Assembly: GCA_018883425.1 (NCBI GenBank)
Contig: VFQY01000010.1
Location: 1-42,891, forward strand
Reading direction: 5' to 3'
Origin: Candidatus Omnitrophota bacterium
GTDB taxonomy: Bacteria > Omnitrophota > Omnitrophia > Omnitrophales > Aquincolibacteriaceae
Length of the DNA stretch: 42,891 bases
Position numbers and translations under genes: made by a program. Below are positions 2,787-5,341 of the stretch, piece after piece (position 1 is the first letter of the stretch; the number at the start of each line of letters is the position of its first letter). Below the pieces are notes generated by a model that was not told where the DNA came from, made no database searches, and worked only from the letters and a program-made list of their open reading frames with translations.

Positions 2787-2840
2787 GCGGAGCCGACAAA
2801 AGTGAAGCGTTCTTCGGCTCCGCACTGCAATTTTGTCGGC
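2787..2840. repeat. Two overlapping inverted repeats upstream of the sigma-54 promoter
   Basis: GCGGAGCCG (2787-2795) / CGGCTCCGC (2815-2823) and GCCGACAAAA (2792-2801) / TTTTGTCGGC (2831-2840); both pairs are perfect and the left arms overlap. Confidence 0.7.
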
Positions 2841-2877: not shown

Positions 2878-2893
2878 TGGCATATAAATTGCA
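2878..2893 (+). promoter_or_regulatory. Putative sigma-54 (-24/-12) promoter of glnN
   Basis: TGGCATATAAATTGCA fits TGGCAC-N5-TTGCA with the exact 10-nt gap between the invariant GG and GC; it lies about 150 bp upstream of the glnN ATG. Confidence 0.75.
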
Positions 2894-3041
2894 TCTAGGG
2901 TGCCACAAAAAAACCTCAGCCCCAAGCAAGAAAAGTGTCGCAAGGCTGAAGGGAACCGAGGATAATAGCCCCATGCAATCATCGATCAAGCCGGCTTCCT
3001 CTCGGGAAGCCTCAACATCAAGCACGAGGAGACAGGAAAAC

Positions 3042-5225
3042 ATGAGCGGGAGCACTTCGCGTTTACAAGCCATCTCAGCGGTGACGAGTTACAAGCCCAT
3101 TTCGGAGCCGCTAAACTTCAATGAAACATCCACTCAGGCTCTTTTTGGGTCGAACGTTTTTAGTGTTGCCGCGATGAAAGCTCGCCTGCCTAAAGAGGTC
3201 TTTAAGTCCCTGAAGAAGACGATCGACCTGGGCGAGAAGCTCGACCCGAATGTGGCGGATATCGTGGCCGCCGCGATGAGGGATTGGGCTATCGAAAAGG
3301 GCGCGACCCATTACGCGCACGTCTTTTATCCGCTCACGGGCAGCACGGCTGAAAAGCATGACAGCTTTCTTGCCACGGACAGCGAAGGCGCGGCGCTTGC
3401 TGAATTCAGCGGTAAAGCCCTTATTCAGGGTGAGCCTGACGCATCGAGTTTTCCGAACGGAGGCATTCGCGCGACGTTTGAAGCCCGCGGCTACACGGCT
3501 TGGGACGTCACCAGCCCCGCTTACATTCTCGAAAACCCGAATGGAACGACGCTCTGCATCCCGACGGCGTTTGTCTCTTGGACCGGAGAAGCCCTGGACA
3601 AGAAGACCCCGCTTTTGAGATCAATGCAGGCTTTGAACGTTCAGGCCCAGAGAATCCTGCGCGTTTTCGGCCACTCCAACATATCCCGCGTCGTCCCGTA
3701 TGCGGGGCCGGAACAGGAGTATTTCCTGATCGACCGCAACTTCTTCTTCGCCCGACCCGACCTGCTTCACTCGGGCCGGTCTCTTTTCGGAGCCAAGCCT
3801 CCCCGCGGACAGGAGTTCGAGGATCAGTATTTCGGGGCGATTCCCGAGCGCGTTCTTGCTTTCATGCTGGAGTGCGAGCGTGAGCTTTACAAGCTGGGCG
3901 TTCCCGTCAAGACCCGGCATAACGAAGTGGCTCCCGCTCAGTACGAAATCGCTCCGATTTACGAGAGCGCGAACGTCGCGACGGACCACCAGCAGCTTGT
4001 GATGTCGACCATGAAGCGGATCGCGCAGAAGTACGGCATGGCTTGTCTGCTCCACGAAAAGCCGTTTGCCGGTGTGAACGGATCCGGTAAACACCTGAAT
4101 TATTCCATCGGCAACAGCACCCAAGGCAACTTTCTGGATCCGGGCGATACGCCGCACGAAAACACGCAGTTCCTGGTTTTCTGCGCCGCCATCATCCGCG
4201 CCGTCCATAAGCACGGAGCACTCTTGCGGGCCTCCGTCGCGACGGCGGCCAATGACCACCGTCTGGGTGCCAATGAAGCGCCTCCTGCGATCATTTCGAT
4301 TTTCCTCGGCGAACAGCTCGCCGACGTTTTCGAACAGATCCGCAAAGGCGGTGCAAAGTCCTCGAAGAAGAAGGGGACTCTCACCATCGGCGTCGATACG
4401 CTGCCGCCGCTTCCGAAGGATGCCGGAGACCGCAACCGTACGAGCCCGTTTGCCTTCACCGGAAACCGCTTTGAATTCCGCGCGGTCGGTTCGGGGCAGT
4501 CCATTGCCGGACCGCTGGTGATCCTCAATACCATCGTTACGGAATCGCTTGATTACGTCGCGACGGAGCTGGAGAGCGCGACCAAGGGCGACCCCAAGAA
4601 ACTCAACGGAGCCGTGCAGAAGCTTATCCAAGAAATTATGGAGAAGCACGGCGCTGTGATCTTCAACGGAGACGGCTATTCCGAAGCTTGGCATAAAGAA
4701 GCGGCAAAACGCGGTCTTCCGAATCTGAAGACCACTGTCGACGCCATTCCTGCCATGGGCACGAAGGAAGTCACTGATCTCTTCTCGAAGTACAAGGTTT
4801 TGTCGAAGCGCGAAGTCGAGAGCCGTAACGACATTTACATCGAGCAGTACTGCAAGACGCTCAATGTTGAGTCGAATCTGGTCGTGAAGATGGCCAAGAC
4901 CATCATTCTTCCGGCAGCCGTGCGATACCAGGATCAGCTGGCGGCGGCTTATGTGAAGATGAAAGACCTCGGCTATGAATTCAGCACGGAGACCCTCGAT
5001 AACTTGACGAATCTCGTGAAGGATCTTGAGGATCGTGTCGCGGCGCTTGAGGAGAAAAAGGCTCATCACGGAGCCAAGTCCCTTCTCGACGAAGCTAAAC
5101 ATTACTGCTACGAAGTTCTTCCCGCTATGCAAGCCGTCCGTGAATCTGCGGACAAGCTGGAAGGCGTGGTTGCCGACGACCTTTGGTCGCTGCCGACGTA
5201 TCAGGAGATGCTGTTCATCAAGTAA
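3042..5225 (+). CDS. glnN: Type III glutamine synthetase (GSIII)
   Basis: The ORF encodes a GSIII-type protein ('[11 protein letters not shown]', '[14 protein letters not shown]', '[20 protein letters not shown]'). ATG 3042 is preferred over the ORF-track start (2802) because of the SD GAGGAGACAGG and because the sigma-54 site lies inside the longer ORF. Confidence 0.95.
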
Positions 5226-5250
5226 AAGGACAGGGATCCGGCTCAGAGTG

Positions 5251-5281
5251 AAAAGGCCGCCTTCGGGCGGCCTTTTCTTTT
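5251..5281 (+). terminator. Rho-independent terminator of glnN
   Basis: AAAAGGCCGCC-TTCG-GGCGGCCTTTTCTTTT: perfect stem, UUCG-type tetraloop and T-rich tail, 25 bp after the stop. Confidence 0.93.
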
Positions 5282-5341
5282 GAAGTCCGGATTCAGATTG
5301 CCGAGAGAGGCAGTGCTTCCGCGATTTCCGGGTTTCTTGTT

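Follow-up and report, generated by a model that had tools for sequence, protein, structure and literature searches.

A sigma-54 promoter for type III glutamine synthetase in an Omnitrophota genome, and its probable activation by a NifA-like protein

The question raised by this locus is from which promoter, and through which activator, the type III glutamine synthetase (GSIII) gene glnN of an uncultured Omnitrophota bacterium is transcribed. The window, that is, the whole stretch of 42,891 nucleotides analysed, carries upstream of glnN the 16-mer TGGCATATAAATTGCA, which a sequence-only reading had taken as a sigma-54 element with GG and GC at exact -24/-12 spacing. This assignment holds: GG lies at 2879-2880 and GC at 2891-2892, the spacing is canonical, and all 12 scored positions of the consensus searched (TGGCAYRNNNNTTGCW; in general form TGGCAYR-N4-TTGCW) are matched. 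The main features are as follows:

2878..2893, + strand: sigma-54 -24/-12 promoter of glnN, TGGCATATAAATTGCA, zero-mismatch consensus
2903..2905, + strand: predicted glnN transcription start, from the usual distance of ~11-12 nt after the -12 GC
3042..5225, + strand: glnN, type III glutamine synthetase, 727 aa, from its domains, with the start from homologue alignment
5251..5276, + strand: strong hairpin AAAAGGCCGCC-TTCG-GGCGGCCTTTT with a T-tract, probable terminator, read from the sequence

The identity of the gene as a type III glutamine synthetase, proposed from the letters alone, is borne out by its product, which scores far over the cut-off for all three Pfam families GSIII_N, Gln-synt_C and Gln-synt_C-ter; the enzyme type is recognized by GSIII_N, catalytic and GSIII-type C-terminal domains in a protein of about 700 aa, and all of these were found. 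The mechanically called 807-aa open reading frame opens at GTG 2802, so that the promoter falls inside it, and GSIII_N starts only at residue 112 of that frame. The start is placed at 3042 because homologues align an ATG there (in 36 of 43 sequences, counting its own, whose alignment reaches back to residue 1 of the shorter model); since GTG 2802 lies exactly 80 codons before 3042, the longer frame is too long by the amount first estimated. A less likely start is the in-frame ATG at 2973, which has a GAGGA-type ribosome site; 3042 is better supported by homologues. Taken with the predicted transcription start at 2903-2905, codon 3042 implies a predicted leader of ~138 nt. No Rfam family reached its gathering score as an RNA leader element, the best weak matches (5226-5308) corresponding to the terminator hairpin. 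The hairpin and T-tract at 5251-5276 suggest that glnN is likely transcribed alone.

Within the window, 2878-2893 is the sole zero-mismatch match to TGGCAYRNNNNTTGCW, and sites with up to two mismatches occur at chance level and are uninformative. Across the assembly (2.18 Mb, 156 contigs, 95% complete; both strands), the strict consensus has four zero-mismatch matches, a raw count that is weak evidence by itself; the reversed-pattern control gives one. The matches precede (i) glnN in the window, (ii) amtB-glnK on contig C57, (iii) a lone PII gene, glnB, on C36, and (iv) no clear gene on C11. Three of the four thus lie directly upstream of nitrogen-assimilation operons, for which the chance is ~2e-10 under a simple random-placement model, and the amtB promoter of this genome, TGGCATATCAATTGCA, differs only slightly from the glnN core promoter. 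At C11 (G000:C11:16984-17167, L128), the sigma-54 match is perfect and an enhancer copy of the kind described below, also exact, lies 158 bp upstream; no recognisable gene follows, and the site may possibly serve a small RNA or a small protein.

Conservation in orthologous upstream regions, which the sequence-only reading had set as a test of the element, was found: a similar -24/-12 element stands upstream of the own glnN in 14 of 19 relatives, scoring 12/12 in eight, 11 in three and 10 in three, and the opposite strand of the 19 regions contains no site scoring 10 or more. The own GSIII of these relatives forms a clade different from that of the window's GSIII, yet the elements are present. 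In addition, elements scoring 11 or 12 precede GSIII genes at a few loci of other phyla, namely Desulfobacterales (L055), Thiothrix (L119), Opitutae (L087/L088), Puniceicoccales (L090), Nitrospirae (L107/L109) and Sedimentisphaerales (L116). From this evidence, 2878-2893 appears to be a working sigma-54 promoter of glnN and part of a conserved nitrogen-assimilation circuit.

The promoters of the relatives share a recurrent upstream palindrome, ACA-(A/T)4-TGT, often within TACAAAATTGTA and often in tandem. The two copies are then commonly spaced by 28-31 bp (~29 bp), with their centres at about 58 and 87 bp before the GG, and the usual range is 55-90 bp upstream of -24. Within 160 bp of 19 promoters, 22 exact copies were counted against a mean of 0.06 and at most 2 in dinucleotide-preserving shuffles, a comparison that is not independent because the motif came from those same promoters. 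Closer to independent are enhancer-plus-promoter targets unused in motif discovery and the association of motif and promoter in the genome itself. A motif 51-81 bp upstream of a -24/-12 element occurs 27 times in 16 of the 39 genomes of the order, against none for the reversed-pattern control, and the genes below comprise glnN (nine genomes), glnA (one), amtB (four), PII (two) and amino-acid permeases, together with a few without a clear nitrogen link (L198, L208, L209 and one membrane protein in L199). In the wider phylum outside the order, the pattern was found in ~10 of 338 genomes and the reversed control in a similar number, so a regulon is claimed for the order alone. As candidate enhancers, NtrC dyads were absent from the examined promoters and the NifA site TGT-N10-ACA was found in only 1 of 20. 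No paper on the ACA-W4-TGT motif or the circuit in Omnitrophota was found in literature that excludes most subscription journals.

In the genome of the window, ACAWWWWTGT occurs at 14 places and the promoter pattern with at most one mismatch at 21 sites, and six of the motif copies are followed within 200 bp by a promoter-like site, against 0.027 expected. The six pairs belong to amtB-glnK (C57), a second amtB-glnK (C107), an OmpL-like porin (C21), C137, C13 and C11. On C137 (G000:C137:513-3102, L240), a circularly permuted ATP-grasp/Alpha-E pair is preceded by an enhancer copy that is exact and by a sigma-54 site with one mismatch, and may therefore join the nitrogen regulon. At the lone PII gene glnB (G000:C36:15844-15931, L126), an exact ACA-W4-TGT is located 62 bp downstream of the sigma-54 site, in the leader. 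The element of the own glnA is weak (score 10) and lies a long way upstream of the operon, and no exact enhancer accompanies it. Upstream of two Hsp20 genes, at L246:3264 (C134 of this genome) and L247:1309 (relative G005), stands TGGCACG-N4..5-TTTGAA, which resembles a sigma-54 element with GA replacing GC at -12; no ACA-W4-TGT is nearby.

The machinery for such a promoter is encoded in the genome. The presence of rpoN, on which the first proposal depended, was confirmed as one RpoN with all three domains, AID, CBD and DBD, and the gene was found in 30 of the order's 39 genomes, of which many are incomplete. The expectation of an NtrC-type activator stood in part: four sigma-54 activators are present, namely three response regulators and one GAF-AAA-Fis protein, but none reaches the NtrC cut-off, the response regulators all falling far below that of the ntrC equivalog (best, 411 versus 558.6 bits). 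The GAF-AAA-Fis protein, which contains GAFTGA, passes the nifA equivalog cut-off (574.1 versus 528.85 bits), and its relative in G016 scores 552 bits against the nifA model. Its gene, at L125:5748-7376, lies on contig C43, 9 bases upstream of glnA, which encodes the type I glutamine synthetase (GSI). No nifH, the sole nif gene searched, was found over cut-off in this genome; with TGT-N10-ACA nearly absent from the promoters, the activator is thus NifA-like in build and not in role.

The NifA-like protein is present in 33 of the 39 genomes, this one included, and in 22 of the 33 its gene shows linkage to one for glutamine synthetase, both being on one contig and strand and no more than about 8 kb apart: to GSIII in eight (G003, G010, G012, G016, G018, G019, G021, G022) and to GSI in fourteen (G000, which is the genome of the window, G001, G002, G004, G006, G009, G011, G014, G015, G025, G028, G030, G034, G038). 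The tightest arrangement, as in G016, runs from the nifA-like gene through two enhancer sites and the sigma-54 promoter to glnN; in the genome of the window, glnN and the activator gene are on different contigs. At the activator locus, a small gene for an exosortase-associated protein (TIGR04073) lies just downstream of the glutamine synthetase gene in this genome, and such a gene (L125:3859-4224; L249; L250) is found there with GSI or GSIII alike, with lpx-type genes nearby. Since the best candidate is a one-component NifA-like GAF protein and the response regulators miss the NtrC cut-off, NtrC control should not be assumed, and the likely activator of glnN is the NifA-like protein.

That the promoter is real and is instead served by one of the three response-regulator enhancer-binding proteins, within an NtrBC-like two-component system, is judged unlikely. 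Three such activators do exist, one of them beside a sensor-kinase-like gene pair, and against them stand the missed NtrC cut-off, the lack of NtrC-type dyads, the absence of a Fis domain from the reading frame of the C86 activator and the position of the C40 activator next to sigma-54-like targets of its own. The latter are two adjacent secreted-protein genes without a Pfam match (G000:C40:7348-8205; L131, L137, L138), each with a sigma-54-like element, and their location just downstream of a response-regulator sigma-54 activator suggests a local two-component regulon.

In front of the window's own glnN, no exact ACA-W4-TGT copy was found, only a degenerate pair:

2827..2836, no strand assigned: proximal enhancer-like copy GCAATTTTGT, one mismatch to ACA-W4-TGT, centred 47 bp upstream of the -24 GG
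2796..2805, no strand assigned: distal enhancer-like copy ACAAAAGTGA, two mismatches, 31 bp from the proximal copy and centred 78 bp upstream

An equally good pair at 27-33 bp spacing arose in 4 of 5000 shuffles. The spacing of 31 bp is as in the relatives, the position is about one helical turn closer to the promoter, and both copies lie within the arms of a 16-nt inverted repeat (2792-2807/2825-2840). The upstream enhancers that go with a sigma-54 promoter are represented here by the conserved ACA-W4-TGT of the relatives and by this degenerate pair.

The window's GSIII groups with that of G005 and with Desulfovibrionales sequences, apart from the order's own GSIII clade, which includes the one named Omnitrophota locus, L124, and glnN looks to have been acquired horizontally. 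The promoter is absent in G005, the bearer of the closest homologue; G005 (G005:C41, L247) has no GSI match and seems reliant on this GSIII alone. The foreign affinity of the enzyme, the degenerate enhancer copies and the missing site in G005 would fit a decaying or weak relic left after horizontal gain, with the core kept, enhancer control poor and glnN mostly expressed by other means; this is quite unlikely given a core promoter that is perfect and nearly matches that of amtB, and a single weak sigma-70-like site (9/12, near 2676-2704) on the + strand. A chance match of the 16-mer TGGCATATAAATTGCA without promoter function, to which the expectation of about one such motif per genome lends some room, is very improbable in view of the gene set, the conservation in relatives and the co-occurrence of enhancers.

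The preferred reading, held with good confidence, is that the NifA-like activator, acting at tandem ACA-W4-TGT sites, would drive glnN from the sigma-54 promoter at 2878-2893 under nitrogen limitation. In this mechanism, the one-component protein (GAF-AAA+-Fis, C43) would respond to nitrogen limitation by binding the tandem palindromes, using at glnN the degenerate pair with its centres 47 and 78 bp before the -24 box, and would contact the sigma-54 holoenzyme waiting at 2878-2893, with ATP used for promoter opening, such that GSIII, AmtB-GlnK, GlnB and further proteins for nitrogen scavenging would be produced jointly. Comparison between genomes shows the promoter, the enhancer motif, the common set of genes and the linkage of the activator gene to those for glutamine synthetase. 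Binding of ACA-W4-TGT by the NifA-like protein is suggested by association, namely this linkage and shared conservation; glnN expression is predicted to rise under nitrogen limitation, and nitrogen status might, as a guess, be reported by the GAF domain or by PII proteins, through PII contact or a GAF ligand. Several points weigh against this mechanism: the glnN pair is degenerate, the G005 glnN has no promoter, the activator gene is unlinked to glnN here, the glnB motif lies downstream of its promoter, and the own glnA has a weak element without an exact enhancer.

For the order as a whole, it seems reasonably probable that a NifA-family protein has replaced NtrBC as the general regulator of ammonium assimilation, with its own enhancer code of tandem ACA-W4-TGT and with a gene that stays beside the glutamine synthetase gene of the locus, be it of type I or type III. 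If so, a nitrogen regulon is defined for an uncultured lineage, together with a DNA motif that predicts it, and the case suggests that activators of the NifA family can govern nitrogen metabolism in general, outside nitrogen fixation.

Among known systems, Kazakov et al. (2015, PMC4641369) describe DVU1949 of Desulfovibrio vulgaris Hildenborough as a one-component sigma-54 activator predicted to control nitrogen metabolism; its predicted targets are DVU1231-DVU1233, DVU1258 and DVU3392, and its gene is cotranscribed with DVU1952 and, in some genomes, with iorAB. This regulon is the closest precedent for one-component sigma-54 nitrogen control, the comparison covering target sets; the activator gene resides there with DVU1952/iorAB, whereas here the linkage is to a glutamine synthetase gene. 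Further likenesses are the grouping of the window's GSIII with Desulfovibrionales and the Desulfobacterales GSIII locus L055, which has a perfect promoter and two exact ACA-W4-TGT copies. DVU1258 is a GSIII and DVU3392 a GSI, so that a sigma-54 promoter on a GSIII gene is not unprecedented, the Desulfovibrio prediction being the only description of one found in literature without most subscription journals. The enterobacterial NtrC/sigma-54 system of glnA shares the sigma-54 promoter and upstream tandem enhancers on ammonium-assimilation genes, but here the synthetase is of type III rather than type I, the enhancer is ACA-W4-TGT rather than the NtrC dyad, and the activator is a one-component GAF protein in a genome with no protein over the NtrC cut-off. 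NifA of nitrogen fixers has the same GAF-AAA-Fis architecture, reflected in the equivalog score above cut-off, and differs in that here no nifH is found over cut-off, the targets are assimilation genes and TGT-N10-ACA is nearly absent. Finally, cyanobacterial glnN is a GSIII gene induced by nitrogen starvation under NtcA control (PMC6316151), in contrast to the sigma-54 control proposed here, which, if true, would represent one route by which GSIII, elsewhere under NtcA, enters sigma-54 circuits.
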